Shown: one piece after another, positions 18,272 to 38,414 of the stretch | How the letters are laid out: each line of letters starts with the position of its first letter | How positions within the stretch are numbered: position 1 is the stretch's first letter | Assembly (NCBI GenBank): GCA_002372465.1 | Contig: DFGW01000093.1 | Coordinates: forward strand, 1-39,897 | DNA: 39,897 nucleotides | Direction of reading: 5' to 3' | DNA from: Butyrivibrio sp. UBA3740 | GTDB lineage: Bacteria > Bacillota > Clostridia > Lachnospirales > Lachnospiraceae | The notes under the pieces: model-generated | What the model was told of the DNA's origin: nothing | The model's input: only the letters and a program-made list of their open reading frames with translations | Database searches by the model: none | Made by a program: the position numbers and the translations under genes

Positions 18272-18345
18272 GGCGAGGTAGCTCAGCTGGCTAGAGCACG
18301 CGGTTCATACCCGCGGTGTCGAGGGTTCAAGTCCCCCCCTCGCTA
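18272..18345 (+). tRNA. tRNA-Met (anticodon CAT)
   Basis: 74 bases with a seven-pair acceptor stem (GGCGAGG with CCTCGCT, first pair G-U), a D-arm (GCTC ... GAGC) and an anticodon stem CGCGG/CCGCG around TTCATAC. The T-arm has GAGGG/CCCCC around TTCAAGT, with one A-C mismatch. CCA is not encoded. The resemblance is to elongator Met tRNAs of Clostridia rather than the initiator, which has a mismatched first pair and GGG/CCC anticodon stem; a lysidine-type Ile tRNA is not excluded. Its 3' end is the integration target of the following island. Confidence 0.93.
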
Positions 18346-18356
18346 CTAACTTTTTT

Positions 18357-18395
18357 AAAGCGAAAACCTGTATTTATCAGGCTTTCGCTTTTTCT
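18357..18395 (+). terminator. Terminator after tRNA-Met
   Basis: AAAGCGAAAACCTG (18357-18370) pairs with CAGGCTTTCGCTTT (18378-18391), with one mismatch, followed by T's. By the att model it belongs to the left end of module 1 rather than to the ancestral tRNA locus. Confidence 0.8.
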
Positions 18396-18448
18396 CTTTG
18401 TAATGGAAAAATGTGTACATTTGTTGACAGTATAGAAATGCTTGATAA

Positions 18449-18628
18449 GAGTTATGTGAACTATTAGGAATCGGAAATAATACTGCTTACAAGTTGTTGG
18501 AATCACATCAGATTCCTGCCTTTAGAATAGGAAAGACCTGGAAAAATCCTAGAGAAGGAGTAGACAATTTTATACTAGATCAGTCAGGATTAACGAAATC
18601 TATGAATTACTTTCATAAATCCGAATGA
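18449..18628 (+). pseudogene. Excisionase / helix-turn-helix DNA-binding protein remnant
   Basis: 59 codons open at the 5' side: in-frame TGA TAA stand directly before GAG at 18449, and no start codon or ribosome site remains. The translation runs ELCELLGIGNNTAYKLLE then IPAFRIGKTWKNPREGVDNF. This is the winged-helix pattern of excisionase-family proteins (LxxLLGIGxxTAYKLL, FRIGKxWKxPR). Such proteins direct integrase toward excision in Tn916-like and tRNA-borne elements. The N-terminal few residues are lost. It fits with the integrase remnant at 25783-26088. Confidence 0.7.
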
Positions 18629-18658
18629 TGGTGAATTCTAAATATTTGAGTCAAAACA

Positions 18659-18692
18659 ATACGCAGTATGCCATTTCCGGCATACTGCGTAT
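18659..18692. terminator. Perfect 14-bp hairpin terminating the nucleotidyltransferase gene
   Basis: ATACGCAGTATGCC (18659-18672) pairs with GGCATACTGCGTAT (18679-18692) around ATTTCC. On the minus strand it is followed by TTGTTTTG, 40 bases after the stop codon. Confidence 0.8.
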
Positions 18693-18732
18693 TTAGCTTT
18701 AATGAACATTATCAATTTCCAAAATGTCTAAA

Positions 18733-19380
18733 CTATATTTTCTTCGCATTTACCCTATCATAAATCTCTTTAACGGTTTCTGCATAAAGTGATCTCGATT
18801 TCTTATTGGGATCATCATTATAGTTTTTCTTATCCAGATACAATTCACGAACAAGGTTCCAATCACCGCTGTTTTTTATGTAATCTATCTTCTCTCCCAG
18901 TTTATAAGGAGAGGACCTCTTTACCCACATGTAAATATTCGTCTTTTTGTTGTGGCGTATGTATTCTTGTCCACATTCCCCATTTTCTTCATACTCATTG
19001 ATCAAGGCAATGTCGCAACTGCGCAAAACCCTTGATGAAAATGGATCAACCCTTTTTAATGTGATTACTCTTGTAGAATCCTCGATTTTGTTGTAACCAT
19101 AGCTTAAGTATAGCTTCTGTAGACCAGTGATAATGATATTATGAATTTCGGATGCGCTATATTCTTCCTCAAAGTCATTAATCGCATAATCAATGTCAAA
19201 ATCATATCCTATGTTTGTCTTAGGATCATAAGTAATCATGTTGCGCTCACTACTGCCTATGAAATGAAACTGAAAGGTGAAATACTCCCGTATCAGGTCT
19301 TGCAATTCCAGAGTCATTTCAATGAGCTTATCTTTGTATGGCTTGGCTTCCTTCTCAGTAACATAAATAAAATTGTGCAT
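18733..19380 (-). CDS. Orphan nucleotidyltransferase-fold protein
   Basis: 215 residues from the ATG at 19380, nine bases after AAGGAG; the longer frame to 19410 lacks a site. The sequence FIGSSERN (Gly42-Ser43) followed by DFDIDY (Asp60, Asp62, Asp64) is the GS...DxDxD metal and nucleotide-binding pattern of the polymerase-beta-type nucleotidyltransferase superfamily. A third acidic site may be in SCDIALINEY, near residue 139. No HEPN, effector, kinase or antitoxin partner lies next to it. It is flanked by terminators inside the tRNA island. Possibilities are a defence-type nucleotidyltransferase (CD-NTase or MNT-like) or an antibiotic-modifying enzyme; none can be chosen from sequence alone. 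Confidence 0.65.
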   Translation of the reverse strand: MHNFIYVTEKEAKPYKDKLIEMTLELQDLIREYFTFQFHFIGSSERNMITYDPKTNIGYDFDIDYAINDFEEEYSASEIHNIIITGLQKLYLSYGYNKIEDSTRVITLKRVDPFSSRVLRSCDIALINEYEENGECGQEYIRHNKKTNIYMWVKRSSPYKLGEKIDYIKNSGDWNLVRELYLDKKNYNDDPNKKSRSLYAETVKEIYDRVNAKKI

Positions 19381-19489
19381 AGTTCTTATCTCCTTCTTAT
19401 CCCAAGCCACCCATCTAACGTCATCGTTAAATCATTTAATCATAGCACATACTATCGAATAATCAAGACATAAAGTAAGCATCAAATAA

Positions 19490-19527
19490 AAAGCAAAAAC
19501 CGTAACAGCTTCTCGCCATTACGGTTT
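19490..19527 (-). terminator. Terminator of the 1902-residue surface protein gene
   Basis: AAACCGTAA (19497-19505) pairs with TTACGGTTT (19519-19527). On the minus strand it is followed by a T-rich tail. It stands after the post-TAG reading frame ending at 19589, not directly after the TAG. Confidence 0.8.
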
Positions 19528-19588
19528 CTGGATCCACATCAAAGTTTTCAAACTAATCCATATATTTTCTGCACCATTTTTAGAATTA

Positions 19589-19753
19589 TCATTTCACAAT
19601 AACAGTACATTTAGATACTTTTACTTGGCTTGTCTTGGGCGTAAACGTTTTTGTATAGCCTGTTGTTCCTCCGCCACTATTTACGAGCTTTTTTATCGCT
19701 ACGTTAGACCCACACGAATAAGTATCAGAAGGAGTGTTTTCCTGAACATATGG
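19589..19753 (-). pseudogene. In-frame continuation of the surface protein after TAG
   Basis: 54 sense codons continue in the same frame directly after the TAG at 19756-19754 and end at TGA TAA. The translation starts PYVQENTPSDTYSCG and ends SQVKVSKCTVIVK, the kind of beta-strand end (TVIVK) that closes bacterial Ig-like domains. There is no start codon or ribosome site of its own. It is either the lost tail of the gene after a nonsense mutation or a stop read-through extension. Confidence 0.55.
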
Positions 19754-22700
19754 CTAATCTACGGTTACGAGTGATGACGTAGTTACTGCTTTGTTTGCGT
19801 TAGAAGTGATAGTTATTCTAGCCGTTCCTTTAGATTTACCAGTAACATTTCCATGCTTATCTACTGTAGCCACTTTTGTATTACTGCTCTTCCATGTAAC
19901 TTCAGGAATGTCGCACTTTTTAGGTCCATAAATTGGAGACATCGTAACTTTGCCACCGATAATTACATTTTCGTCCTGCATCGTTACAGATGTTGCGGCA
20001 AATCCTACCAACTCTCCATTTTTATATGTTCCAAGCCAAGCGTTAAAGTTATTAGCAGCAACAATCTTAAATGATATGATTTTGGAACCGGTGTATTCAC
20101 CACGACCTTCTATCCTAAGAGAAGCTGTTCCCTTCTTGACATTGTTGTAATATGAAGTCACAACATAATCGTCACCTTCAACAAGGGCTGTTTCTACTCT
20201 TGTTTTGCCGCTTCCCGAAACGAAGGTTAATGGAATATAATCAAGTTCTATAGCTCTGCCTGTATAGTACTGATTTGCAATCTTACCAGCTTTAACAGCA
20301 TTTACATTTTTGACTGATGCAACAACTTCATAGTCAATCTGCGCACTACCCGTATAATTCTTTTCTTTAGCTACTATATTAGCCCTTATAGTAGTACCAA
20401 CAGGTAGAACATCCTGCTTTCCTATAGCTTGCCCGGTAAGCAGATTAGTGTATGTTACAGTGTAATCCGTGTTCTCCTTGAGCGTTTTTCCATTGACATC
20501 ATAGATTACAGGTTTTGAATAATAATATGTTCCTTTCTTCTTGTCATTTGCCACAACATTTGTACAAGCCATTGACAAAGAACTAATGTTTCTCTTGGAA
20601 ATAGCAAATACCTGCGCAGCTCTCTTTCCGGTAAAATTTCCTTTTCCTGTGATAGTGAACGTAGGCACCTTCTTACCGCCAACAGCTGTATTATTTGCAT
20701 AAGACACTGTATAATCAAAGCCTTCTCTAAGTGTCCACGTGTTTTCACCATTAGTGTAATTCACAAGAGGAGATGGCTTTACACCGCCTTGTGAATAATA
20801 TATGTCATCCGGAACAGATACTGTTATTCCTTCATCATTTATGGAAAGAGGCGAAATTTTATATTTTGCTGTAAGCTTTCCGGTATAACCCATTTCCGCA
20901 TTTGCTGTAACAAAAACCGTCACAGTTGCCGCATTTGTTGGACTCACATTGTATGAAACATTATAGCAATCACTAGATATCTCATTACCGGTTCCTTTTG
21001 TTCCAGTGTATACACTTACAGAAGGCTCCTGTACCTTGCCATTGTAGGTCACACCCGGTGAGAGAATAACACTTCCAAGCTTGGTTCCCGTAATTGTAAC
21101 CGACACTCTCTTTTCACCCACATATATACCTGTGTCCGATGGTTGAATTACTATTGTGCCTTTTCCAACTTTATTACAATTCTCAAATTTGAAAGTATAA
21201 TCTCCCGGATTAACCTCCTTCTTTCCAATCTTTACCGCCAAAGAAGAACTATTTTCAATCAAATTCTCCATTTCTGTTAATGTATAACTCTTCTTTAAGC
21301 CAACAAGAGTAGCGCTCTTAATTGATGCTGTGCCTTTAGCCCTTACTACAAAGTCTTTCTTAATGATTCCTGTGTAATTTCCTATGCCTGTTATACTTAC
21401 AGCGGTTGATCCTACTGCATAAATAGGTTCATAGGACAATACATAGTCTTTCTTTTCCTTAAGCTGAATTCCGTTATGAATCACAACCACCACTGGCTTT
21501 ACCGCTTTATTTTTGTTTTCCACTCCTGAGGCAACGTCAATATCGTTATCCTGCAATTCAAGCGGTGTAATAGTAAATGTCTTTGTACATTTACCGGAAT
21601 AATTACCTTTTCCTGTTATAGTAATAATTGCTGTTCCAGCGTTTACATTATTCTTAAATGAAACAGCATATTCTGAACCGTTTCTTAACAAAGTATTTCC
21701 GTAGTAAACCTTAGGAATAGGCGTAATCTTAGTTCCTGTATAGGCATAAGATTCTTCTATTCCAGTTGTCCACAAACCTTCCGGGGCTGCAAATAATTCT
21801 GAAACGGCAGGATCACTGATAACATCAGAATTGACAACTGTTACTTCACAAAAAGCAACATTCATCCCATCTACTGTTCTAGCAGATATTATGGCTTTCC
21901 CTGATGAAACTGCAGTTATAACCCCATTGCTTACCTGTACAATCGCCTCATTTGATGTAATCCAGAATACAGGGTTATCAACATTAACTGGGTACACCTC
22001 AGCAACTAGAGTCTTTTTTTCTCCTACGTTAAGTGATACGACATCATAATTTAAGGACACACCTGTTGGTCTCGCATCTGTCCAGTATGCATAAAGTACA
22101 TGATCTGATGCCATGTTAACCACGGTTTCATTAGTAATAAGCTGGCCACCTTCTCGCTCCGTAAACCATCCAGCAAAATATTTACCTTCTAAAACAGGGA
22201 TGGGAAGAACGGCATATTCATCTCCAAAGATCACGTTGATAGAGTCAACGTCTACTACTCCTCCATTAGCATTGAATGAAACAATATATTCATGTCCATT
22301 CCAATGCGCATAAAGAGTATGGTCTTGAATGACTTCAACTATGCTATCTGATGTAACACGCAATCCACCATCTTTTTCTGTATACCATCCTATGAACTCA
22401 TATCCTACTCTTTCTTCTGGTTCCGGTAATTCACCATATTTACAGCGATACCTTACACTTGTAGATGTATCAAGTTTTTTTCCAAATGATTCATAATAAA
22501 CTGTATAATACTCATTTGTCCCGTACTCATACTGGATTACAGCATTGGAAAGATACGTATTATTTGTTCCAATGATTATATCTTCCCATTCACTCTGTGT
22601 CCCGCCATAAAATACTTCTCTTAACGATGAGCAATCTAAAAAGGCATCATCTTGAATATATGTAACGGATGCAGGAATATATACTGATTTGATGCTGTTG

Positions 22701-25462
22701 CATCTCCAAAATGCTTTTTGGGGTATTTGTGTAATGCCCAAAGGGATCTCTATACTTTGTAACGAATAGCACGCGCCAAAAGCGCCTTCATCCAGTTGAT
22801 CTAATACAGATGGCATATCAACTTTACTTAATGAGCTACAAATATAAAATGCATACTTCCCTATAGAAGATAAACTTTTGGGCAGCGAAATCTCTTCTAT
22901 CGCACAAAGACCAAAAGCGTAATCTCCAATATGTGTGACAGTGTTTGAGAACTCGACTTCACTTAAACCACTACAAGAATAAAAAGCATTATTACCTACA
23001 GTATGAATGCCATTTGAAATAACAGCTGATTGAATGTTTTGGTTTTCTGCAAAAGCATTGTCTGGAAGGATGCCCGTCCATGCATACTCAATAGAATAAC
23101 CGCCCCCTACAGGTCCAACTGAAACTAATTTCTCACATCCTTCAAAAACTTTGCTTTCTACCTGCGATAGAGTTTCTGGAATACTCACATATTCAAGATT
23201 GGTGCAGTTCATGAATGCACTGCCTCCAATACTTGTTAAACCACTTGGCAATGTCACTCTAGAAATATTACTACAACCCAAAAAAGCAGATCGTCCAATA
23301 CTAGTTATTCCGATTGGTAAGTTTAAACTTGATAAACTGCTACAACCTGCAAAAGCACCATGTCCGATGCTTTCTAAATCAGATGGCAAAGATATACTAG
23401 GTAAATTGCTACAGCCATAAAATGCACTATTTCCAATACTTGATATACTTGACGGAAGGACAACTTCTTCAAGCGTCTTAATCGACAATCCACTAGCCGG
23501 AATAGACTGTGTCCACCCAAACTGATAATCATAGTCTCCCCCTATAGGACCAGCTGATTTAATCTGCGTACAATCCTTAAAAGTATCTGTTCCAAATGTT
23601 GTTGTACTTTCAGGAATAATAAATTGTTGAACAGATGTGCACCCGGAAAAGGCTTCACTCCCCACCTCTGTAATTCCCTCTGGTATTGTTACAGAAGTTA
23701 AGACAGTATTGTTATAAAATGCTTTATCAGGGATTTTTGTATCCCACCCAATTTGTATATTATAGTCTCCGCCATAAGGTCCCACCGTACATAATTTGCT
23801 ACAGCTTTCAAGACCACTAGAATATACTGTTTCCACCGACTTGGGTATGTATATGCGCTCAAGATTAGCGCATGAAGAAAAGGCAGCGCCTCTAAATGTA
23901 GTAATTGACTCTGATATAACAACTGATTCTACACAACTTGAAGAAAATGTATTATGTGGAATTTCAGAAGTCCACTTGTATTCAATATTGTATCCACCAC
24001 CATATGGTCCTGCAGTCAGCAGTTTCACACATCCAACAAAAGGAGTGGACATTCTAGTTATTCCTTCTGGCAGAACAATGTATTCCAACTCACTACAATC
24101 TTCAAATGCTTTAATGCCAATTTCAGTTACACCTTCAGGAACAGTAAAAGAAGTAAGTGATATACAGCCATAAAAGGCTTGACTTCCAATACCAGTTACA
24201 TTATCCAGACCTTTTATCTCATTCAAAGAACTGCATCCAGAAAACAACTGCGCTCCTATTGTTTCAGTATCAGAAGGCAATGTTATGCTTTCTAAACATT
24301 GCGCGTCAAGAAAATAATAGGATACTGTGTTATCATCCCACATATACTCCACATCACATCCGCTACCCACTGGGCCCGCAGATAAGAGACTAGAGCATCC
24401 TTCAAATAAGTAATTATAAAAATTCATTTTACACGTTCCATGTACTTTTTTAAGCCCTGTACATCCGTAGAACGCTTGATAGCCAACATCAACATTATCG
24501 GGTAACGTAATCTCTTCAAGTGAAACGCATCCTCTAAAAGCACCGCCACCTATTTTCTCAATGCTTTCCGGCAGTGATATATTCTTAAGATTAACAAAAC
24601 CGTTAAATACATAATCGCCTAATTCAGTTATGCCCTCGTCAAGAATAACTGTCTTAACATTGGTGGTTTTATTAAATGGACCATTAAGATTATTAGTCCA
24701 TGTACTGCCTTCTCCAGTAATATGAATAAGAGTTAATTCAGGACAACTGCGAAATGCATATTCACCCATATCAGTGACAGATGTAGGAATAGTCAAAGTG
24801 CTTAAAAGGTCGCAGCTATCAAAAGCACTTTGTTCAATCTTTTTGACCCCATCCTTAATTTCTATCGTCAATAGCGCATCAAAATCTTTAAACGCTCCTG
24901 ACATAATATTATTTACGCCACCTTCAATGACTATCGATTTAGCATTGCCTCTGATAGGAAGCGATATGCTTCGCCATGGAGTACTCGTCATTATTCCTGT
25001 TCCGGATACAGTTAAAGTTTCTCCGTCATATTCCCATATAACTCCTTCGCCACATTCTCCTGAATTCGAAGAAGCTCCAAGAAGCATTTCGTCTTTAATG
25101 ATTATTTCTTCTACATCGTCTTCTTCGATAACATCATCTATATTTTCTTGTATATCCAGCGAATCAGCTATCGTTTCATCATCTATATTTCTTTGTATAT
25201 CCTGCAGATCAGGAATTGTTCCATCTTCTAATTCATTCGATTTCTCATCGTTTTCCTTATTTCCGTCGAGAGGCTCTTCCTCATCTGTTTCTAAGTCTTC
25301 TGTTGAATCTACATGCTCAAGACCAATATTGTTCACGTCTAATCCAGTTATACTATCTTCTGTTACAATGTCAGAGTTATAAGCATAAACTGGCATTGAA
25401 GATCCACACACATTTATTGCAATCAATGCACATATTGCCCTACAGATCATATTTCTTTTCAT
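19754..25462 (-). CDS. Giant secreted BspA-type leucine-rich/Ig-like repeat surface protein
   Basis: 1902 residues from the ATG at 25462; a GTG 48 bases upstream is unlikely. AAGGAG lies about a dozen bases before the ATG. Domains in order: signal peptide (~1-27, ending SMPVYA); acidic low-complexity region (~28-125); LRR_5/BspA leucine-rich repeats (~150-975) broken by a recurring insert of the form GPxGGxYxIxYxW; two InlB-type B-repeats (FIGWYTEKDGG, FAGWFTEREGG, ~980-1127); a Big_2 Ig-like domain (~1130-1210); five to six MBG-like beta repeats (GNYTG or GNFTG ends, ~1230-1807); and a last Big_2-like domain. No LPxTG or terminal membrane anchor is present. A role in adhesion or binding of polymers or neighbours is inferred. 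The frame ends at TAG with 54 coding-like codons after it. Confidence 0.85.
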   Translation of the reverse strand: MKRNMICRAICALIAINVCGSSMPVYAYNSDIVTEDSITGLDVNNIGLEHVDSTEDLETDEEEPLDGNKENDEKSNELEDGTIPDLQDIQRNIDDETIADSLDIQENIDDVIEEDDVEEIIIKDEMLLGASSNSGECGEGVIWEYDGETLTVSGTGIMTSTPWRSISLPIRGNAKSIVIEGGVNNIMSGAFKDFDALLTIEIKDGVKKIEQSAFDSCDLLSTLTIPTSVTDMGEYAFRSCPELTLIHITGEGSTWTNNLNGPFNKTTNVKTVILDEGITELGDYVFNGFVNLKNISLPESIEKIGGGAFRGCVSLEEITLPDNVDVGYQAFYGCTGLKKVHGTCKMNFYNYLFEGCSSLLSAGPVGSGCDVEYMWDDNTVSYYFLDAQCLESITLPSDTETIGAQLFSGCSSLNEIKGLDNVTGIGSQAFYGCISLTSFTVPEGVTEIGIKAFEDCSELEYIVLPEGITRMSTPFVGCVKLLTAGPYGGGYNIEYKWTSEIPHNTFSSSCVESVVISESITTFRGAAFSSCANLERIYIPKSVETVYSSGLESCSKLCTVGPYGGDYNIQIGWDTKIPDKAFYNNTVLTSVTIPEGITEVGSEAFSGCTSVQQFIIPESTTTFGTDTFKDCTQIKSAGPIGGDYDYQFGWTQSIPASGLSIKTLEEVVLPSSISSIGNSAFYGCSNLPSISLPSDLESIGHGAFAGCSSLSSLNLPIGITSIGRSAFLGCSNISRVTLPSGLTSIGGSAFMNCTNLEYVSIPETLSQVESKVFEGCEKLVSVGPVGGGYSIEYAWTGILPDNAFAENQNIQSAVISNGIHTVGNNAFYSCSGLSEVEFSNTVTHIGDYAFGLCAIEEISLPKSLSSIGKYAFYICSSLSKVDMPSVLDQLDEGAFGACYSLQSIEIPLGITQIPQKAFWRCNSIKSVYIPASVTYIQDDAFLDCSSLREVFYGGTQSEWEDIIIGTNNTYLSNAVIQYEYGTNEYYTVYYESFGKKLDTSTSVRYRCKYGELPEPEERVGYEFIGWYTEKDGGLRVTSDSIVEVIQDHTLYAHWNGHEYIVSFNANGGVVDVDSINVIFGDEYAVLPIPVLEGKYFAGWFTEREGGQLITNETVVNMASDHVLYAYWTDARPTGVSLNYDVVSLNVGEKKTLVAEVYPVNVDNPVFWITSNEAIVQVSNGVITAVSSGKAIISARTVDGMNVAFCEVTVVNSDVISDPAVSELFAAPEGLWTTGIEESYAYTGTKITPIPKVYYGNTLLRNGSEYAVSFKNNVNAGTAIITITGKGNYSGKCTKTFTITPLELQDNDIDVASGVENKNKAVKPVVVVIHNGIQLKEKKDYVLSYEPIYAVGSTAVSITGIGNYTGIIKKDFVVRAKGTASIKSATLVGLKKSYTLTEMENLIENSSSLAVKIGKKEVNPGDYTFKFENCNKVGKGTIVIQPSDTGIYVGEKRVSVTITGTKLGSVILSPGVTYNGKVQEPSVSVYTGTKGTGNEISSDCYNVSYNVSPTNAATVTVFVTANAEMGYTGKLTAKYKISPLSINDEGITVSVPDDIYYSQGGVKPSPLVNYTNGENTWTLREGFDYTVSYANNTAVGGKKVPTFTITGKGNFTGKRAAQVFAISKRNISSLSMACTNVVANDKKKGTYYYSKPVIYDVNGKTLKENTDYTVTYTNLLTGQAIGKQDVLPVGTTIRANIVAKEKNYTGSAQIDYEVVASVKNVNAVKAGKIANQYYTGRAIELDYIPLTFVSGSGKTRVETALVEGDDYVVTSYYNNVKKGTASLRIEGRGEYTGSKIISFKIVAANNFNAWLGTYKNGELVGFAATSVTMQDENVIIGGKVTMSPIYGPKKCDIPEVTWKSSNTKVATVDKHGNVTGKSKGTARITITSNANKAVTTSSLVTVD

Positions 25463-25560
25463 AATGAGATTAGTCTCCTTTGTCGAAATCAAAAAAGTGT
25501 ATACTTCCACCTATAACTATTCTAGCAATCGATTAATAATATTAAGTAAACAAAATGACA

Positions 25561-25601
25561 AAAAAATATAAAGAAAGGCAGCATACCGTTTTGGTATGCT
25601 G
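25561..25601 (-). terminator. Hairpin upstream of the 1902-residue protein gene
   Basis: CAGCATACC / GGTATGCTG around GTTTT (25579-25601). On the minus strand it is followed by a T-rich tract. It would insulate the surface protein gene from leftward transcripts that come through att copy A. Confidence 0.6.
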
Positions 25602-25651
25602 TCATATGATCGAGCTCTTTTCTTATTGAATCTGTAAATTGGTTTTAAAAG

Positions 25652-25756
25652 TTTTGATTAATCTTTGATTAATCTATTTGACGATGAAGCCGCAGGCCTT
25701 GTGTTTATGCTTGTTTACAGGAGAACTAATGGTTCAAGTCCCCCTCTCGCTACTAA
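25652..25756 (+). repeat. att copy A: 105-bp repeat ending in the tRNA-Met 3' end
   Basis: Contains two GATTAATC boxes (25656-25663 and 25667-25674), a conserved stretch with GATGAAGCCGCAGGCC, and the 26-base tRNA-derived core (25731-25756, one mismatch to 18324-18349). Closely similar copies are at 36487-36591 and 38309-38414. Read as the right-hand attachment site of module 1, with the boxes as integrase arm sites. Confidence 0.8.
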
Positions 25757-25766
25757 GGTTAAAGTT

Positions 25767-25803
25767 CCGGAAATGCCTTATTTTAGGCACTTCCGGTTCT
25801 TTT
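25767..25803 (+). terminator. Terminator directly after att copy A
   Basis: CCGGAAATGCC (25767-25777) pairs with GGCACTTCCGG (25786-25796), with one mismatch, followed by TTCTTTTTT. It also contains the stop codon of the leftward integrase remnant. Confidence 0.8.
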
Positions 25804-26088
25804 TTGCTTTTGTGATTCAGGGCAAAATTTGATTAATTTTGATGAAAGGTCTGTCAAAGCCCTTGTTTTCTCTGATTTCTCAGACATGTCGTAGTTATAA
25901 CAGATCTCGTTTGTGGTCTCCAGATGTCCCAACATACTCGCTACAGCTTTGATAGGAAGTTCCTGCCTAAGATATGAAGAAACTGTTCTGCGTATCTCAT
26001 GAATTGACGTTTTCTTGATTCCAGCCTCGTCAGCACGTCTTGTAACTGCAGAACTTATAGAATGAGCAGTACATCCATGTTTAGCCTC
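25783..26088 (-). pseudogene. int: Tyrosine recombinase (integrase) C-terminal remnant
   Basis: 101 codons, open at the 5' side. An in-frame TAG at 26091-26089 precedes the first codon, next to an A/T palindrome. The catalytic C-terminal part is well preserved: HEIRRT (His-x-x-Arg), MLGHLETT (the second conserved His) and the nucleophile Tyr in NYDMSEKSEK, all of the Tn916/phage integrase family. The N-terminal arm-binding and core-binding domains and the first catalytic Arg and Lys are lost, so it cannot be active. It ends 27 bases from att core A. With the excisionase remnant it shows that the island was built by a tyrosine-recombinase element. Confidence 0.85.
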
Positions 26089-26091
26089 CTA

Positions 26092-26203: not shown

Positions 26204-26207
26204 GTTA

Positions 26208-32200: not shown

Positions 32201-35200
32201 TTGTTACGCCCTTAGGAATAGTTATTGAGTGAAGTCCCGTGCAATTATAAAACGCTCCTTGGGGAATAGAGGTTATTCCTTCTGGTAAAACAATTCTTTC
32301 AATGTTGTTCCAATTGCGAAATGTATTATCTGCATGGAAGCTTTTGGTAAGAACCACCTCTTTAAGTGCTGCATATTCCGAAGTGTCCTCAAAATATTTA
32401 TCATCTTCGTTGCCAAACAGTCCCCCAAGTCCTCCAGGCGCATGGCCTATTTCAATCCTCTTAAGAGCAGTGCATCCCTCCAAACTTCCAGGGCAGAGTG
32501 ATGCCTGATTTTCATCCGTAAATGACTCCAAAGAGGTACAATCCTTGAAAGCATATTCCATTACTGTAGCACGCTCATTCTTGGGAAGTGTTACCTCTTT
32601 TAATCGTGAAGCTTTTTCGAAAGAATGTGAGTCATAATACCAAACAGATGTGGGCAAATCAATTGACTTAATTCCACAATTGTAAAAAGCATATTGTTCT
32701 ATATAACAAATGCCTTCCGGTAAAACTACTTCTTCAAGGTTATTCCAGTTTCTAAATGTATTGGCAAGTATTCTTTCTCGACTTTTTGTCAATACAACCT
32801 TTTTAAGGGAGGAATACCTTGACGTATCATCAAAATAAGGCAGCTTTTTATCATCACTATGAGTTACCTCCGCGTTAGAGTTAAATAACGCGCCGAGTGT
32901 GTTGTTGACATGTGTGACATTTGATGCGATTCCACAAATATACGGGGTGGTGATTGTTTCAATTGATGTACATCCTTCAAGTGCACCAAGACCAATACTT
33001 TGAACCGAATCCGGAATTTTTAAAGAGCGCAGGGAACTACAATCCTTAAATGCTCCTTCACCAATATTCTGCAGCTTATCCGGCAAAGGTATTCTCTGAA
33101 GTGAACTGCATCCTTCAAAAGCATATTTATATATTCCTTCTATATTGTCTGGTATATTAACTGACACAAGCGATGAACATCCCGAAAAGGCGTAGTCATA
33201 TATCATAACTACTGTATCTGGGAGTACTATTTCAGTAATTTGACTCCAATCTTTAAATGCCATGGTATTAATTCGATCACAATTTGTTAGGCAGACTCTG
33301 CTTAGTGCAAAATCAGAAGGATTATATTCTCTGCCTTCTATGTTGGACTCATCAACACCAAGCAACCAGCTAATGCGCTTCACATTAGGCAAAGTCAAAC
33401 TTCTTATTGATGTGCATCCTTTCAGTGCCCCGTAACCTATACTGGTGCAGCTTTCAGGGATTGCAAAAGAGATAAGCCCACTGCAATCCTTAAATGAATA
33501 CACACCTATTTCCACTAAGCCGGCAGGCATCCTGAAAAACTTAAGACTGCTGCATCCATCAAATGCATTTGCCTGAATGCTGGTTGTATTGCCGGGAATA
33601 ACTATTTCTTCTATGTTTGACCAATGGTAAAAAGCTTTTTCCTTTATTTCTGTAACTTTTGTCAGCGTAACCTTTTTAAGCGCTGCATAAGTAGAAGTGT
33701 CTTCTAATACCTCCTGCTTGGCAAAAAGATACCCCATGGTACCGCTTGTTCCCGAAAGTAAAAACGGTGTTTTCAACTCCTCAAGAGAAGTACAACCTGC
33801 AAGAGCACCCGGATAAATACGCTTAAGGGAATCCGGAAACTCCAGGTACTTAATCTCTGTGTGATCCTTAAATGCATCTTCAGAAATCTCAATTACCGGG
33901 TATCCTGAAATAGATGAAGGAACAACTACTCTTTCTATGTTTCCAGTATATCCGGTGATACATATTTCAGTATTCGCATTTATCTTGGAATAGCTAAACT
34001 TTGATGTTGGGACTACATTTTCATCGCCCTCTGAAGAAGCATCATGCTCCCAGGGATTTCTTCCCGGCATCTCAGTAAACTTGCCATAAAGAGTGATGTC
34101 TTCATCAGGCATCTTATCAACATTGAAGCCCCAGCTTTCTTTGAACTCCTCATCCTTGTACCAGCCATCAAAAATGTATCCCATCTTCGAAGGCTTCTTA
34201 GGATAATCAATATATTCACCTTCAAAAGCGGTAGCATAGAAATCTGCAATACCCTCCGCTTTATAAGTTATCTTATGTGTCTTTTTCCATTTTGCATACA
34301 GTATAGTGTTTCCGGTAACTTTATCATTATTAAAATTCCACTCCCGAACATATCTACTGTCCTTATACCAGCCATATACAGACTCACCCTGGTGACTGGT
34401 CATATCAGGACGGGGAATAAGACTTCCGGCAGGAAGATTTAATGGCGCAAGATATACATCGGATTTTCCCGTGCTAAAGCCTATTCTGTATGTTTTTTCC
34501 TTCTCCTCCTCTACCTTGTTTGTATATATAAGTTTCTCAAAGTTCGGAGTCGTTACTTCCTCATCAATGTCTAATTCCTCAATTAAAACATGAGCACCCA
34601 CTCGACAAAACGCAAAAATGCTTATGGTCTTCTTGAGGATCTCCATCTCCAGTCTTACACCCTCATCGGCAAATAACTCTGCATCTGCCTCAATAAGGAC
34701 ATTTACATGTAATCCAAGGGTCTCTCTTAAATAGACTTCACCATTAACCTTCGCCTCAGCACTGGCGGTTGGAACTACATCGCGTTCCATAGCAAAGCTG
34801 CCATAAGCATATTTCAGTGTGGCGGAAGACGCCAGCGAAGTCTTGACTGAAACTTCACCGGATACATCAAAGCAAAGATAAATATTGACTCCTATATCCT
34901 CGATTCCGGTGGTCTGGAATGGAATTGTAGCAATCTGTATCTCGCCTTTATACTTTCCTTCAACTTTACCTTCAAGAGTAGTTTCATTCTTTAAAGTAAG
35001 GGTGAATTCGTTAATCTTCCAGCCAAACAGGTCAATATCAATATCAGCATCTACAGACAATTTATCTGCAGCTTTAACAGTGTACTTTAGGTTTTTCCCT
35101 ATATTGCCTGTATATTCCTCAACCGCAAGTTCATCCCCCAATGGATCGGGATTGATGATTATATGATTAAGATCTAAGTCAGGTTTAGACCACATGAGGA

Positions 35201-36284
35201 TGCTTCCATCCTCATTTGTTACCTCTTCAGCCTTGTATGCTTCCTGAGCTCCGTCTCCGTCCGTATCAAAATAGTAAATTGCATTTGCAAAATCAGGAGC
35301 CAGATTATGATCATGGATAACAAGCGTATTAAGTGCATCTCTTCCAAGAGCTCTTTCAACGGAAAAGACTACAGAATCTCCCTTATCTTCAGCAGAAAGA
35401 ACCTTGAAAGCATCTCCGTTTGGAATCTCTGTTGAAGGAGGCAGATAAAATACAGAGCCGGTCTCCAAAAGGTCCGCCTCAGGTTTTGAAATTTCTATTT
35501 TTGACTTGGAAATAAAAGAATAGTGTGATCTTACAATTTCAGAAAAATCGTGGACTCCATCCGCAAAATCAAACTCAGAAAGATTCTCTGAATAGTAGCC
35601 CATTCTTTCGGCATAAAAAAGAGCCTCAGAGCCATGATAGGCCCTGATTGTTACAGATGAGTTAAATGCATAGTTGCTTATATAAGAAACATAGAATGGA
35701 ATGGTTATGGTATTAAGTGATTTGCATCCTGAAAAAGCACCCTCTTCTATAGCTACTGCGAACTTGCCGTCCAGCTTTATCGGGACATTGACTTCCCTGT
35801 CCGAAGTGCCGTTAAAGCGCACAATATGAGCGTAGTCATTATCATCGAGGTAATACTCATACTTACCTGCAGTTAAGATCTCAGGATCTACGACTGCTTC
35901 TTCATCAGACGATAAAAGGTGCGAGCCTTTTTCGATATTCTGAGTATCCTCTATATCTTCTTCAACTGAAGCATCGCTGTCTGACTGGATTTCGTCGTCC
36001 AACTCTCCGGTATTCTCATCAAAATCCTCATCTTCTGCGTCGAAGTCATCCCCGATTTCATCAGATGAATTGCCGCGCTCAATATCCTGAAGCTGTTTTT
36101 CAAGATCTGAATAGTCTACTATCGTGCTCTCGTCCGAGGTCTCTTGCTGATCCTCGTCTTCTGCGCTGATAGCTGATATACTGTCATTCTCAAATTCAGC
36201 AGCAAATCCCGTAACACCTGCACTCGTGAAAATGAGCGTAAAGCTCATTATTCCACTTAATACCCTGTAACCAAGTTTTATCAT
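26208..36284 (-). CDS. Very large secreted repeat protein: LRR (BspA), InlB B-repeats, Ig-like domains and an unassigned C-terminal domain
   Basis: 3358 residues from the ATG at 36284, with AGGGG upstream; a TTG 21 bases earlier is unlikely. Layout: signal peptide (~1-29, ending GVTGFAA); strongly acidic region (~30-130); one LRR unit; unassigned region (~240-370); beta-rich domain without repeats (~370-580); paired InlB repeats (~595-740, FDGWYKDEEF); LRR blocks (~775-1430, 1560-1735, 2000-2300) with further InlB repeats between; a DDPxNP linker (~2309-2353); Big_2 (~2355-2438); six to seven MBG-like repeats (~2445-3070); Big_2 (~3075-3145); and a unique C-terminal ~210 residues. LRR blocks share the phrase LxxTxFRNWNNxEEIVLP. 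No LPxTG motif or membrane anchor ends it. A surface adhesin or polymer-binding role is inferred. It is one uninterrupted frame of about 10 kb. Confidence 0.88.
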   Translation of the reverse strand: MIKLGYRVLSGIMSFTLIFTSAGVTGFAAEFENDSISAISAEDEDQQETSDESTIVDYSDLEKQLQDIERGNSSDEIGDDFDAEDEDFDENTGELDDEIQSDSDASVEEDIEDTQNIEKGSHLLSSDEEAVVDPEILTAGKYEYYLDDNDYAHIVRFNGTSDREVNVPIKLDGKFAVAIEEGAFSGCKSLNTITIPFYVSYISNYAFNSSVTIRAYHGSEALFYAERMGYYSENLSEFDFADGVHDFSEIVRSHYSFISKSKIEISKPEADLLETGSVFYLPPSTEIPNGDAFKVLSAEDKGDSVVFSVERALGRDALNTLVIHDHNLAPDFANAIYYFDTDGDGAQEAYKAEEVTNEDGSILMWSKPDLDLNHIIINPDPLGDELAVEEYTGNIGKNLKYTVKAADKLSVDADIDIDLFGWKINEFTLTLKNETTLEGKVEGKYKGEIQIATIPFQTTGIEDIGVNIYLCFDVSGEVSVKTSLASSATLKYAYGSFAMERDVVPTASAEAKVNGEVYLRETLGLHVNVLIEADAELFADEGVRLEMEILKKTISIFAFCRVGAHVLIEELDIDEEVTTPNFEKLIYTNKVEEEKEKTYRIGFSTGKSDVYLAPLNLPAGSLIPRPDMTSHQGESVYGWYKDSRYVREWNFNNDKVTGNTILYAKWKKTHKITYKAEGIADFYATAFEGEYIDYPKKPSKMGYIFDGWYKDEEFKESWGFNVDKMPDEDITLYGKFTEMPGRNPWEHDASSEGDENVVPTSKFSYSKINANTEICITGYTGNIERVVVPSSISGYPVIEISEDAFKDHTEIKYLEFPDSLKRIYPGALAGCTSLEELKTPFLLSGTSGTMGYLFAKQEVLEDTSTYAALKKVTLTKVTEIKEKAFYHWSNIEEIVIPGNTTSIQANAFDGCSSLKFFRMPAGLVEIGVYSFKDCSGLISFAIPESCTSIGYGALKGCTSIRSLTLPNVKRISWLLGVDESNIEGREYNPSDFALSRVCLTNCDRINTMAFKDWSQITEIVLPDTVVMIYDYAFSGCSSLVSVNIPDNIEGIYKYAFEGCSSLQRIPLPDKLQNIGEGAFKDCSSLRSLKIPDSVQSIGLGALEGCTSIETITTPYICGIASNVTHVNNTLGALFNSNAEVTHSDDKKLPYFDDTSRYSSLKKVVLTKSRERILANTFRNWNNLEEVVLPEGICYIEQYAFYNCGIKSIDLPTSVWYYDSHSFEKASRLKEVTLPKNERATVMEYAFKDCTSLESFTDENQASLCPGSLEGCTALKRIEIGHAPGGLGGLFGNEDDKYFEDTSEYAALKEVVLTKSFHADNTFRNWNNIERIVLPEGITSIPQGAFYNCTGLHSITIPKGVTRIDEEAFNGCTGIETIELPSTVTLINKRAFANCTALRSITIPEECKNIYDLPFAGCTNLERLVVYSRSNSSLQSTTFLEDDFKGTIYCFKDSDIERYAKEHGFAVVNIDTSFATVRYCFNNGTADKEVREIAGSTFKPIGDPQNGYATFTGWYKDEACKSKWNFVKDVLPETGVTLYAGWTRGKGVYGNFYVDASDGFIVITGYEGTPSSITIPETLDGLTVKEIGAYAFADNTLLTTIKIPKTITRVDSNAFSGDTKLATFTVAEENETYAANNGVLFSKDNSKLVLFPLGKTGSYTVPDGVKEISDAAFRNSALEEIILPSGLTTIGNLAFDNCKSLKTITLPDSVETIGKFAFSRSCLDSIYGPVQNAKINSYMKNYSLPYNYFTVTFSLGDDSVYKIKQRAGECISEDFKNELNKFKKDAYEIKNWKVTSTDKIWDFANDKMPAEDLALYADWNCDFTYSVVGSAVTITGTGNSKTDYIIPDTIEEKIVTSIAEGAFVSENIKSVTIPATVTAIAEGAFANGITLVGDKNTEAENYATGHNGIEFKVRKYVLSFVTNGGSDIDDCYYAKGEVISKPSDPIKDNHVFANWFADEELTTGFDFGAETMPGRDAKVYAKWYKQNENIADNEFTYKKIGGKLTITGYGGTDTYLVIPASINGTPVNAIGDSALRDNTYVREITVPNSVDTIGDYAFYGCSRLEKLTVSEDVSSIGRYAFANCGSLNSVDLSGFAVKELPEGLFMYDTNLYEVALPAGLETIGKYSLAGCTYLQEVSIPATVTSIKDHAFYMDSTLESIELPSGVTTIGEGFIDGCDSISEIRMSGQGSKFTVSDGILYLGNRLVRCPENYAGTVNIPASVTTIGKGAFRNCDNLENFAIPESISTLESEAFENCDSFHVLLVPDAVTVIGSNAFFGSRDLTLTGNKGSYIETYAKENNLRFKYVGEEGDDPTNPDDPVNPDDPTNPDDPVNPDDPVNPDDPTNPDDPVIPDEPADKDYRVILSRDKVSLYVGEEYTLSAHVDPVAQGAQISYTSGNAAVATVATDGKITAVAAGKALIKATADNAMSAYCVVTVMESEVEEDDTPYGNETTAGIWVAAQSFESEIQYTGGKITQQNLRVYYGKKLLKEKTDYTVAYKNNVNVADSDTKSAPQLTVTLKGQYQGSKVYYFSITPVDISNTELVTENGQLTVVYNKKVQHPIPELYFAGKKLTNKKDFVCEYPDSDTYYQYVSSFWTPTIQVKGNGNFTGTRTVEFKITEANKSLSKATVTIAPANSADKKIYFKGTLRPSDLKATVKLGGKVVPQSYYEITSVPDKVGKGIVTVEATNTGKTNGYFGYKNVSITSYGDRNIKNVTVEGLSASVTFDGASAASANGIRQNIALKYSGDPLVEGTDYTASYSANKKVGTAKITIKGLGRYTGSLSKSFKITACTENISVDYDDEISFAKGGVTPSVKVTYAKGSASAYVLNSKTDYSVVIKNRSNLKPGTMVFQIAGKGNFKNYKSEDMQVTVTKGNLRKATMTLTDKAVVAKGTGWKSSVKIMDVNGKALAAGTDYDKNLTYSYDGMEEGRLPAAGTTVYVTAVGKGFYEGSSLMGSYKVFKSNVSKLAFVVDPMSHTGREVEPKVGERIHVYANAKDAKSKKNELTPATDYIEVVGYSSNIKVGTAKVTVKGLGDFGGTKVLNFKINKMAYGDVAIAATSIFFDKKALNLSKADLPTGQIVATVGPAKAYNKTVIWTTSNAKVATVDKTGLVTAVGQGKATITGTVQGTKKSAKCTVSVVKYTKSYTLEEVTSWVADGSIILDQGQYEGGYLPALASDEDIAKGAYFAYAGDKYSLTTGDRSYMTIYSGGNPIGMVYSPGRNQGYRKVYQKYGQKGLDAFIYALHTGDYSDFYKIRGNCIPLYMDAAFGQPNGYDGDFDGAYPVLPERFLVEKTQFYNKGSHSVDYREHINYDSYWSDKVKAGKAPEFRNLETTPLTKTEIKNYKLAPENYVFFVPEY
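29224..29358 (-). repeat. 18-bp tandem repeat coding the DDPxNP linker
   Basis: About seven copies of an 18-base unit encode DDP(T/V)NP between the leucine-rich and Ig-like halves of the giant protein. Such Asp/Pro linkers are stiff, extended spacers in surface proteins. The near-identical copies could change in number by slippage in whole codons without breaking the frame. Confidence 0.85.
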
Positions 36285-36334
36285 AACCCATACCCCTGTT
36301 TCCAAAAATAAATTTTTTATAAACTGTCTTTTAC

Positions 36335-36364
36335 ATTATACAAAACTTAGTATTTCACCCACAA
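36335..36364 (-). promoter_or_regulatory. Promoter of the 3358-residue protein gene
   Basis: On the minus strand: TTGTGG (36364-36359), an 18-base spacer, and TATAAT (36340-36335), about 50 bases before the ATG. Confidence 0.55.
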
Positions 36365-36486
36365 CAGATTTAAACGATTTTTTGAGCCAAAACGAAACTA
36401 TATTTCATCGGGGAAAGTGTCACTATCTCTTAGAAATCTGTGTTTGCAGAACAAAAGAGGCTCTTTCAGCCTTCTATGTTCACTCT

Positions 36487-36591
36487 TTTTGATTAATTCT
36501 TGATTAATCTTTTTGATGATGAAGCCGCAAGCCTTGTGTTAATGCATGTTTACAGGAGAACTAATGTTTCAAGTCCCCCCCTCGCTACTAA
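36487..36591 (+). repeat. att copy B: 105-bp repeat ending in the tRNA-Met 3' end
   Basis: Same layout as copy A: two GATTAAT-type boxes, GATGAAGCCGCA, and the tRNA core at 36566-36591 (one mismatch to the tRNA). It forms the junction between modules 2 and 3. Confidence 0.8.
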
Positions 36592-36622
36592 AAAAGGAAA
36601 GCATTCGTTGCTTTCCTTTTTT
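36592..36622 (+). terminator. Terminator directly after att copy B
   Basis: AAGGAAAGCA (36594-36603) pairs with TGCTTTCCTT (36609-36618), followed by T's. It is nearly identical to the terminator after copy C. Confidence 0.85.
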
Positions 36623-36631
36623 GATGCACAA

Positions 36632-36796
36632 GACCGGCAAGCGAATGGATGCTTGCATACAAATTCATTTGCCGGTCGTAAGGACATGGAGCACGAAGTG
36701 CGGAATGTCTGTGTGCATAATCGAGTAGGAGTCAGCCTACTCGATTGTGTGTATAGGTAAAATGGTCCCTGGGGACTTAAGTCAAGGGACCATTTT
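36632..36796 (+). repeat. Cluster of four strong hairpins, non-coding
   Basis: H1: GACCGGCAA.../...TTGCCGGTC (36632-36677, with an inner GCAAGC/GCTTGC). H2: nested GACAT/ATGTC and GCAC/GTGC (36683-36709). H3: a perfect 11-bp stem AATCGAGTAGG/CCTACTCGATT (36719-36746). H4: a perfect 12-bp stem AAAATGGTCCCT/AGGGACCATTTT (36759-36796). The reading frame that spans part of it starts inside the att repeat and is not credible. It may be a structured RNA, a mobilisation or recombination substrate, or stacked terminators. Confidence 0.6.
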
Positions 36797-36941
36797 ATTG
36801 AATTGCTAGGGTTAGATTTCTCCGTAAGAATGTTTATAGCAAAACAGCGTTGGTGGTATGTGATTTCTGCCAGACTCTGGGTTGATGATTCCGGGTGGAA
36901 TACTCCAGGGAATGATTCATATCACTGTTTTTGCCTTTGGA

Positions 36942-37108
36942 GTCAACACGTTTAAAGCTCTTGCTTGACCTCAATTGGCGATAATCACCGATGAGTCAAC
37001 CATGTAGAATGTACACTGTTGACCTCAAATGAAGTATTGTAGCTGATAAGTCAACAGATGGACTGATTTTTGTTGACTGCAAATCACAGATTTAAATGTT
37101 GAATCAAC
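36942..37108. repeat. Degenerate ~54-bp tandem repeat with GTTGAC/GTCAAC pairs
   Basis: The half-sites (G)TTGAC(C/T) start at about 36964, 37018 and 37072, exactly 54 apart. Their inverted partners (G/A)TCAAC occur at 36942, 36995, 37050 and 37103. Each unit thus has an inverted pair about 26 bases apart. The rest of 36797-37147 has no gene I can support. Confidence 0.5.
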
Positions 37109-37147
37109 GACCAGGGGTTATTTTCATGACCGCAAACATAAAAAGTA

Positions 37148-37469
37148 TCAAATGAAGTCAAGCAGCGGCTCAGGATTATTTCTTTTTTTCAATGCTTCCA
37201 GTTCTTTCAATGTAATCCCATCCGCAGTTTTCCACTCTAAATTACCGTTTGTACTTGATGCGCAAACAAAAGCTGACGCACCGGATGGTGAATTAAACAA
37301 GATATCCTCCAAGAGAACATAAAGCTAATCCAGTCCAATTCGCAAGGGTACACTTAATACGGCCACTTACGTCCCCATCCATCAAATATAGATTTATGCT
37401 TTTCCCTCTTTGCATGGCTGCAGCGCCAATGTCATCAATTTCATCTTTAGTAAGTGTTTTGTTTCGCAT
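37148..37469 (-). pseudogene. DUF4357 / GIY-YIG-type protein, internally deleted and frameshifted
   Basis: The ATG at 37469 opens a frame reading MRNKTLTKDEIDDIGAAAMQ, then GKSINLYLMDGDVSGRIKC and LANWTG, and stopping at TAA. A different frame then encodes NSPSGASAFVCASSTNGNLEW and KTADGITLKELE and stops at 37148. The first part is the N-terminus and the second the C-terminal DUF4357 domain of a known family of small DNA-processing-like proteins. In complete members a GIY-YIG nuclease domain of roughly 150-200 residues lies between them; here it is missing. This is a remnant with an internal deletion, not a sequencing-type single frameshift. Confidence 0.7.
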
Positions 37470-37536
37470 CTGACTGAAAAGCTATTACTTCTTTGAGTAA
37501 AAAACAGTTTTTTCCATATCTCGGGCATATAACAAT

Positions 37537-37620
37537 CTAATCAGGATGCTTGAACTTCTCGTCTAATGTCTCGCATTCCTCTTTTGTATTCAATATCCAA
37601 AAAACAACTCTCTTCATCAT
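37537..37620 (-). pseudogene. Small broken frame of unknown family
   Basis: From the ATG at 37620 the translation is MMKRVVFWILNTKEECETLD then EKFKHPD, ended by TAG. The same frame then continues IVICPRYGKN, which looks like more of the same protein (a CPxC/G knuckle may have been lost). No family was identified. It lies between the DUF4357 remnant and the toxin-antitoxin promoter. Confidence 0.35.
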
Positions 37621-37684
37621 GCTTTTTCGAATAATTACACTAACAATTTTGTTATACCACTTGCTTTTTAAGCAACACGATTAC

Positions 37685-37713
37685 TTGTTATGTGTCCATA
37701 TATGATGTATAAT
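37685..37713 (+). promoter_or_regulatory. Promoter of the toxin-antitoxin operon
   Basis: TTGTTA (37685-37690), 17 bases, TATAAT (37708-37713), 25 bases before the antitoxin ATG. AAAGGAG at 37724-37730 is the ribosome site. Antitoxin-toxin complexes of this family usually repress such promoters. Confidence 0.7.
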
Positions 37714-37738
37714 TTAGCCACAGAAAGGAGCAAATATT

Positions 37739-37996
37739 ATGCAGATAGTTCCAATGAGAGATTTAAAAAATACTGTAGAAATCGAGCGCTTATGTGCAGA
37801 ATCCAATGAACCAGTATTTGTCACCAAGAACGGATATGGAAGGCTTGTAGTAATGGATATTGACTATTATGAGCGGACCATGCAAAAAATCAATGAAGCA
37901 AGTCTTGTGAATAAAGGCATTGCAGATTATGAAGCCGGCAAGGTCGTTAATGGCAAGGAATCTTTGAAGAAACTAAGGCAGAAACATGGCATCTAA
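37739..37996 (+). CDS. Type II antitoxin, Phd/YefM family
   Basis: 85 residues. The N-terminal ~50 residues have the Phd/YefM fold pattern (VPMRDLKNTVEIERLCAES then EPVFVTKNGYGRLVVMDIDYYER). It dimerises, binds the operon promoter and presents a disordered C-terminal tail (ASLVNKGIADYEAGKVVNGK) that wraps the toxin. Strong ribosome site. The last 11 bases overlap the toxin gene, so the two are translationally coupled. The pair is intact, unlike most of the island, and probably stabilises it. Confidence 0.9.
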   Translation: MQIVPMRDLKNTVEIERLCAESNEPVFVTKNGYGRLVVMDIDYYERTMQKINEASLVNKGIADYEAGKVVNGKESLKKLRQKHGI

Positions 37997-38315
37997 GAAC
38001 TATGAATATGTTTTTACCGAATCTGCCGAAGCTGATATCGATCTTACATTCTCATATATCAGTGATACTTTGAACAATCCTGATGCTGCATCAGACTTGG
38101 CTGATGAGTTGGAGGCACAGCTTGAAAAAATCTGCAAACGCCCAGAGACAGGTAAGATTGTTGAAAACGAATTTCTGAAGAGAAATGATGTATGGCATTT
38201 TATTGTAAAGAACTATATAGCCTACTATCTCATAGATGACGAGAATAGACAGATTGTCATTTTGAGGTTTGTGTACAGCGGTCGTGGTCAGGATAAGATA
38301 GTTAAGAATTTTTGA
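37986..38315 (+). CDS. Type II toxin, RelE/ParE family
   Basis: 109 residues. The sequence has the ParE/RelE order: an N-terminal strand (YEYVFTESAEADIDLTFSYI), two helices (DAASDLADELEAQLEKI) and the strand set WHFIVKNYIAYYLIDDE and VILRFVYSGRGQD. This is the YafQ/ParE-like layout (V..YR-type core strand, here KNYIAYYLID, and the final RVxHxRRD-like strand, here RFVYSGRGQD). Gyrase poisoning or ribosome-dependent mRNA cleavage are both possible. Its stop codon TGA (38313-38315) is part of the first GATTAATC region of att copy C, so the toxin gene ends inside the repeat. Confidence 0.88.
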   Translation: MASKNYEYVFTESAEADIDLTFSYISDTLNNPDAASDLADELEAQLEKICKRPETGKIVENEFLKRNDVWHFIVKNYIAYYLIDDENRQIVILRFVYSGRGQDKIVKNF

Positions 38316-38414
38316 TTAATCTTTGATTAATCTTTTTGATGATGAAGCCGCAGGCCCTGTATTTATACTTGTTTACGGGAGAACAAATGGTTCAAGTCCC
38401 CTTCTCGCTACTAA
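38309..38414 (+). repeat. att copy C: outermost repeat ending in the tRNA-Met 3' end
   Basis: Paired GATTAATC boxes, GATGAAGCCGCAGGCC and the 26-base core at 38389-38414 (two mismatches to the tRNA). It marks the right-hand end of the island; beyond it the original chromosome should resume. Confidence 0.8.

Follow-up and report, generated by a model that had tools for sequence, protein, structure and literature searches.

We analyzed a 39,897-nucleotide contig (DFGW01000093.1, called the window when the whole stretch is meant) from Butyrivibrio sp. UBA3740, a short-read metagenome-assembled genome (MAG) of 3.19 Mb in 263 contigs that is 76.65% complete. The window's only tRNA gene, tRNA-Met (CAT), is followed by 20 kb of sequence that very probably arose as at least three integrative elements accreted in tandem at that gene's 3′ end and subsequently lost their recombination genes, so the modules would correspond to cis-mobilizable elements (CIMEs) within an additive genomic island. 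An earlier note on this DNA had proposed that related elements inserted repeatedly at a single tRNA gene and that their recombinases were lost, and we found the proposal well supported because related genomes have empty sites and inserts of variable size at the same locus and because the window carries repeats of the arm type together with integrase and excisionase remnants.

The 26 bases at the 3′ end of the tRNA gene (18324-18349) recur at 25731, 36566, and 38389 with 96, 96, and 92% identity (1, 1, and 2 mismatches). The three modules closed by these copies have ends in common and differ in cargo. Their features are as follows, in window coordinates:

18272..18346, plus strand: tRNA-Met (CAT), the integration target (ARAGORN)
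18324..18349, plus strand: attachment (att) core, original copy, the tRNA 3′ end (repeat comparison)
18350..25756: module 1, 7407 bp, with terminator, excisionase (Xis)-like remnant, 225-aa open reading frame (ORF), 1918-aa BspA-like protein, and right end A
18467..18583, plus strand: Xis-like helix-turn-helix remnant (HTH_17, E 1.2e-5, just under the gathering score)
18733..19410, minus strand: 225-aa ORF without a family (Pfam scan)
19754..25510, minus strand: 1918-aa BspA-like protein of surface type, with LRR_5 and Big_2 (Pfam scan)
25651..25756, plus strand: right end A, with a TTGATTAAT pair at 25654 and 25665, spacer, and core A (25731-25756)
25757..36591: module 2, 10835 bp, with terminator, integrase remnant, 3365-aa BspA-like protein, and right end B
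25786..26061, minus strand: C-terminal remnant of a tyrosine integrase (PF00589, E 8.6e-5, under the gathering score), containing a single TTGATTAAT at 25829
26208..36305, minus strand: 3365-aa BspA-like protein with LRR_5, Flg_new, and Big_2 (Pfam scan)
36486..36591, plus strand: right end B, with a TTGATTAAT pair at 36489 and 36500, spacer, and core B (36566-36591)
36592..38414: module 3, 1823 bp, with terminator, noncoding stretch, Phd/ParE pair, and right end C
37739..38315, plus strand: Phd-type antitoxin (37739-37996; match just under the gathering score) and ParE/RelE-type toxin (37986-38315)
38309..38414, plus strand: right end C, with a TTGATTAAT pair at 38312 and 38323, spacer, and core C (38389-38414)
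38415..39897, plus strand: terminator and glycosyltransferase gene past copy C, to the contig edge

The recurrence of the tRNA tail appeared in the earlier note at the same positions and with the same mismatch counts. Its statement that each copy terminates one repeat of ∼105 bp was confirmed as well, the shared right end starting 80 bp before each core, and its module sizes of 7.4, 10.8, and 1.8 kb agree with the lengths measured from core ends. The cargo it described, giant surface proteins plus a toxin-antitoxin pair, is borne out by the BspA-type and Phd/ParE assignments. The array need not stop at copy C; the glycosyltransferase region downstream reaches the contig edge, and that stretch may be either the start of a fourth insert or host DNA.

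Compared with right end B, A is 91% identical (105 bp aligned) and C 90% identical (136 bp aligned), and the terminator after the core is common to B and C. The layout consists of two TTGATTAAT repeats 11 bp apart, a conserved spacer of ∼60 bp, and the core. Such pairs occur three times in the window, solely at the three right ends, and the one remaining TTGATTAAT, a seventh and unpaired copy, is found within the integrase remnant, 73 bp to the right of core A. Based on their likeness to sites of Tn916 and lambda, the pairs read as putative arm-type integrase-binding sites, and the right end reads as a putative attR (right attachment site) that joins arm sites to a core. Single-strand folding of the attC type was considered for the right end and rejected, as the consensus of 12 copies has no conserved fold (−2.4 kcal/mol, 13 weak pairs).

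As a chance control, we matched the last 17 bases of each genome's own tRNA-Met (at least 15 of 17, ungapped) to the downstream sequence of 61 genus loci, including the window. The recurrence of the tRNA tail is not due to chance because 17 downstream copies were found in the real sequences and 0 after one base-shuffle per locus. These 17 comprise three in the window, five that belong to a separate hairpin repeat, one second tRNA-Met gene (in G020), and eight element-type cores spread over seven genomes besides the window.

The same tRNA-Met locus is empty in some Butyrivibrio species and occupied in others. Our genus set contains 79 genomes, one per species, and the comparison is therefore one between species. 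tRNA-Met was located in 72 of them, and 60 of the 71 loci other than the window were compared with their downstream sequence; the 11 omitted were mostly those where the contig ends soon after the tRNA. An element-type right core was present at 10 of the 54 loci with at least 5 kb downstream (the window, G073, G013, G022, G075, G030, G067, G009, G011, and G017). With a one-base difference in their C-runs, G013 and G073 escaped the ungapped search, and others may have been overlooked too. One version of the empty site is marked by a GDSL-lipase gene, which lies directly after tRNA-Met in G033 and G024, is separated from it by a relic of ∼170 bp in G006, and lies ∼1.6 to 7.9 kb away in G028, G030, G064, G013, G075, and G022. 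Inserts of 1.48 kb in G067 and G009 have empty counterparts in G050 and G046. Four kinds of right end occur at the locus, and the direct repeats differ from kind to kind (GATTAATC or GATGAT; TTGAATAC; TTGGTTACTT; and GTTTGAGTAG). Integrase-bearing elements also use this site: in G017 an intact 467-aa integrase adjoins tRNA-Met, and in G011 a 5.9-kb element (L095) has its own right end, encodes a 412-aa integrase together with a protein of 614 aa that matches Mob_Pre, and looks like an intact integrative and mobilizable element (IME).

Under serial accretion, elements would enter one by one at the tRNA-Met 3′ end by site-specific recombination catalyzed by a tyrosine recombinase. The attachment site of the incoming circle (attP) would comprise two 11-bp-phased arm sites, a spacer of ∼60 bp, a copy of the tRNA 3′ end, and a terminator. 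Integration would rebuild the tRNA gene with the newcomer's terminator and move the old tRNA tail to the newcomer's right end, and the module nearest the tRNA would be the youngest. After entry, modules would lose their recombination genes, and those of the window would now be immobile without a helper. A hairpin and T-run lie downstream of tRNA-Met at 58 of 60 loci (by a loose criterion, without a shuffle control). The post-tRNA terminators differ between species, forming 51 clusters at 80% identity against 35 for the 60 bp upstream, and this greater variety fits newcomers that carry their own terminator. Furthermore, the tRNAs of G067 and G030 differ at a base (A and G, respectively), and in each genome the right core of a cassette common to both has the base of its host, as expected with a crossover upstream of that base.

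The 20 kb could also have been a single ancestral block, a pattern that the earlier note had named as contrary to its proposal; no relative among the loci compared has it. Module 3 matches G031, G022, and G073 at 90 to 94% in pieces, while the amylase gene is 78.5 to 81.5% identical. In G073, a 2338-aa BspA-like protein (LRR_5, Big_2) is encoded between tRNA-Met and a Phd/ParE right end (L039:3185-10201), which indicates that adhesin-type cargo is recurrent at the locus. Of modules 1 and 2, the right ends alone had matches in the five loci compared; in addition, the initial ∼50 bp of module 2 match post-tRNA-Met sequence in G031 and G030 at 91 to 96%.

We also considered whether the right end of 105 bp is an ordinary dispersed repeat that ends in a tRNA tail by chance, which the distribution of its copies makes scarcely credible. 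A model built from 12 copies recovered 13 full-length copies (12 of them by construction) in 10 of the 79 genus genomes, with at most three per genome. “Full-length” here means E ≤1e-12, a line that was set after the list was seen and that omits the different right end of G075 (E 9.3e-11), and the search filters lose weak matches. Any match to the model was found in 44 genus genomes, mostly to the tRNA tail alone, and at E 1e-7 there was none in 396 other genomes of the family (334 genera; at least one genome, G003, is of Butyrivibrio). In the window's own genome, no right-end repeat was found beyond this contig (best match E 0.06, 41 bases). The right end is thus no common dispersed repeat, the other outcome that the earlier note had said would count against it. 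Six of the 13 copies lie in tRNA-Met arrays (three in the window and one each in G073, G013, and G022), and in all four genomes the right end terminates an insert at tRNA-Met. The other seven are without a demonstrated tRNA-Met location, as a dispersed repeat might be: three are within elements at a tyrosine-phosphatase gene (two in G012, one in G027), one (G032) is beside that gene on the same contig, with no right border visible for the copy, one is on the plasmid pCY186, and two are unplaced (G031 and G028). Another point in favor of chance is that an unrelated hairpin repeat with a tRNA tail follows tRNA-Met by 127 to 153 bp in five genomes.

A pattern scan of genome contigs returned nine stretches, eight from Butyrivibrio and one from Cytobacillus without a core. 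The contigs with the right end are all from Butyrivibrio, namely strains NC2007 (G013), VCB2006 (G012), FCS014 (G022), CB08 (G028), and X503 (G027) and the MAGs SIG346 (G031), SIG345 (G032), and SRR1206671_bin.68 (G073). Pattern matches on a viral contig (L206) and on the Cytobacillus contig (L185) have no tRNA core next to the motif and were taken as chance. A phage origin of the right end was rejected, as none of 50,697 phage records contained it. Among 72,556 plasmid records, pCY186 was the sole match; the fourth contig of B. proteoclasticus B316 (G006) is this plasmid (100% over 2001 bp). The right end lies at 86442-86548 on the minus strand of L209 (NC_014390.1 78000-96000), flanked by a YoeB/RelB pair on one side and restriction genes on the other; farther on are genes for type I restriction-modification. 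Its post-core sequence is common to G012 alone among the 79 genomes.

The remnants that the earlier note had placed after the tRNA (excisionase) and beside copy A (integrase) were both recovered, though under gathering scores: the Xis-like remnant is at the left end of module 1, the integrase remnant is at that of module 2, module 3 has neither, and no relaxase was seen. A Pfam scan of the large ORFs detected no intact recombinase in the modules, and the sole PF00589 match of the contig is the remnant. No conjugation or mobilization genes were found by Pfam in seven ORFs and the 3365-aa protein, with small ORFs partly scanned. An intact integrase of the same family elsewhere in the genome, to which the earlier note had pointed, did not emerge: a search of this 77%-complete genome returned the remnant alone. 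Relatives of the remnant at E 1e-5 occur in 6 of the 79 genus genomes and are at most 52% identical, and the nearest database proteins reach no more than 69% identity, over 72 residues.

Several observations weigh against serial accretion. Among the 79 genus genomes searched, we found no intact element that is autonomous and bears the right end of the window, so we infer the integrase that used these right ends from the remnant. No left arm site was found in modules 1 and 3 or in the cassettes of G013 and G022 described below; the inserts of G028 and G064 have no recognizable right core; and no right border of the island was recognized past copy C. Modules 1 and 2, otherwise unmatched on a single MAG contig, are without confirmation from an independent genome. 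This last point, together with the short-read origin and fragmentation of the MAG, would also be expected if the contig had been misassembled at short repeats. We consider such an error highly improbable, as the repeats are ∼105 bp long and merely ∼90% identical and independent assemblies show like junctions (in G073 and G031, Phd/ParE is followed by a right end and then a core; in G022 and G013, a right end likewise leads into a core).

Beyond the window, cassettes without an integrase have, judging from nucleotide identity, moved between species. A 2.7-kb cassette of DegV, radical-SAM, and TetR genes, without an integrase, occurs in G013, G012, G022, and G010. The G013 copy is 98.4% identical to that of G012 over 2346 bp (and 98.1% over 367), 99.2% identical to that of G022 over 2240 bp (98.1% over 367), and 96.2% identical to that of G010 over 2287 bp, whereas the amylase gene by tRNA-Met is only 75.5, 77.6, and 75.5% identical between G013 and G012, G022, and G010, respectively. 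In G012, the cassette match begins and ends at cores (within 8 bp) and lies 170 kb away from the genome's own tRNA-Met. There, it is nested in the remnant of a Tn916-type element at the phosphatase gene, a 3.8-kb stretch with the direct repeat GCCGTGGCAGACGAA and paired AGTTGTAAA at both ends. A second cassette, which encodes an MntA-like nucleotidyltransferase (NTase), a 204-aa RelA_SpoT-domain protein, and a DUF6718 protein and is possibly a toxin-antitoxin unit, occurs in G030 (L097:8407-9525), G067, and G009. The G067 and G030 copies are 97.5% identical over 1317 bp with flanks at 62 to 65% and different left ends; between G067 and G009, the cassette is no more similar than its surroundings.

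Integration in the genus has a second hot spot at the start of the low-molecular-weight tyrosine-phosphatase gene (L257, L261, L265, L053, and L269), marked by the repeat GCCGTGGCAGACGAA; G038 and G064 have Tn916-type integrases there, and G012 has arm pairs phased by 11 bp. The G038 element at this gene is 10.8 kb long, has the same flanking repeat, and encodes a 415-aa integrase with the Tn916-type DNA-binding domain PF02920. Integrase ORFs are also found there in G033 (motif only) and G064, and G027 has imperfect flanking repeats and a decayed core.

These patterns are very unlikely to stem from homologous recombination or from duplication of segments near the tRNA gene with no site-specific recombination involved. 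tRNA genes and shared terminators do supply homology, and the G010 and G064 cassettes are cut within the right end, which indicates that illegitimate changes occur. However, high identity ends at the cores (G013 and G022 are 73.7% identical in the 500 bp that precede the tRNA, 98 to 99% in the cassette, and 82% in the gene to the right), the G012 cassette lacks a tRNA-Met flank, and the modules share ends rather than cargo.

Compatible with serial accretion, and adding to it a means of cassette travel, is the tentative idea that the modules are, or derive from, integrase-less cassettes with a common right end that are mobilized by an integrase supplied from elsewhere and land on a tRNA-Met platform, with integrative and conjugative elements (ICEs) and plasmids bearing matching sites as vehicles. 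The near identity of the DegV/radical-SAM/TetR cassette in G013, G012, and G022, its core-to-core copy within the phosphatase-gene element of G012, the similarity of the NTase cassette between G067 and G030, and the right end on pCY186 by toxin-antitoxin and restriction genes all point this way, and a helper integrase may plausibly act in trans. Against it, co-transfer in cis with a neighboring element that was later lost, the route of CIMEs, accounts for the same data, and the cross-species movement of cassettes would fit either route alike. In addition, among the 10 genomes with the window's right end, relatives of the remnant integrase (E 1e-5) are confined to the window, where the only one is broken; no circle junction was seen; and the NTase cassettes of G067 and G009 are no more alike than their flanks. 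A broader version, also doubtful, is an integron-like cassette economy in which helper integrases would shuffle small integrase-less cassettes, each closed by the common arm-plus-core right end, between the tRNA-Met platform and matching sites on vehicles such as the Tn916-type elements at the tyrosine-phosphatase gene and the megaplasmid pCY186, while toxin-antitoxin cassettes would provide the hold and giant adhesins would be supplied. As a separate observation, a Phd/ParE right end in G031 (L040:3022-4329) is joined via a core to the left-end sequence of module 3; this junction may be a tandem or a captured circle junction, both of which would look alike.

Serial accretion of decayed elements has precedents, which we compare here from excerpts of the cited papers. 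In Streptococcus, CIMEs are decayed elements with att sites and without recombination genes that accrete with ICEs and IMEs in tandem at a gene 3′ end; classical examples are 1.2 to 13 kb long and carry cargo (PMC5704250, PMC7563491), a range that includes the modules reported here. Similarly, att cores flank each module in the window (18324, 25731, 36566, and 38389), and none has functional integration genes. Unlike the Streptococcus arrays, the window has no intact ICE or IME adjoining the tRNA, and in this genus near-identical integrase-less cassettes occur across species and within an element at another gene, with the right end also on a plasmid. In Alteromonas and Methylophilaceae, additive flexible genomic islands that target tRNA genes gain and lose cassettes between strains, and one is marked by the repeated last 20 bp of tRNA-Lys (PMC4119200, PMC10872708). 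The tRNA gene target and the presence or absence of cassettes at a conserved locus are likewise found here, but the passages of these two papers describe no arm-site right end common to unrelated cargo and no nested copies.

Integron cassette arrays without an integrase (clusters of attC sites lacking integron-integrases, CALIN) share a recombination site and are thought to be moved in trans (PMC11389934). The likeness lies in integrase-less cassettes that are each closed by a shared site and, for integrons, in toxin-antitoxin pairs among the cargo (PMC4119200), as far as the excerpts go. In contrast to CALIN, the site described here comprises arm repeats and a tRNA core without a conserved fold, and the cassettes are fewer and larger. 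Tycheposons resemble the array in their tRNA border (tRNA-Met among theirs), cargo, and tyrosine recombinase (PMC10872708, PMC11389934), which in the window is present as a remnant only. Within the genus, the IME of G011 and the Tn916-type elements of G033, G038, and G064 include intact integrases at tRNA-Met (G011) and at the phosphatase gene (G038), and at E 1e-5 none of these integrases is a close relative of the remnant in the window.

Among the open-licence papers listed for Butyrivibrio, we found no description of such arrays. Based on the excerpts, CIMEs, additive tRNA islands, and integrase-less integron arrays are already known; the defined right end, its nested and plasmid copies, and the cross-species identity of integrase-less cassettes are what this case adds. 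The spread of islands that lack a recombinase of their own is a matter of practical interest, and helper dependence is directly testable in this genus of rumen commensals, where the ends are closely defined, one cassette occurs in two kinds of locus, and intact related integrases exist. The findings suggest one way in which rumen bacteria may exchange giant surface proteins and toxin-antitoxin pairs.

The separate hairpin-rich repeat that ends in the tRNA-Met 3′ end was found in G025, G014, G026, G015, and G044, and the same repeat occurs at several places in the G058 locus (L118). Its size is like that of a microCIME; its palindromic composition is not obviously so.

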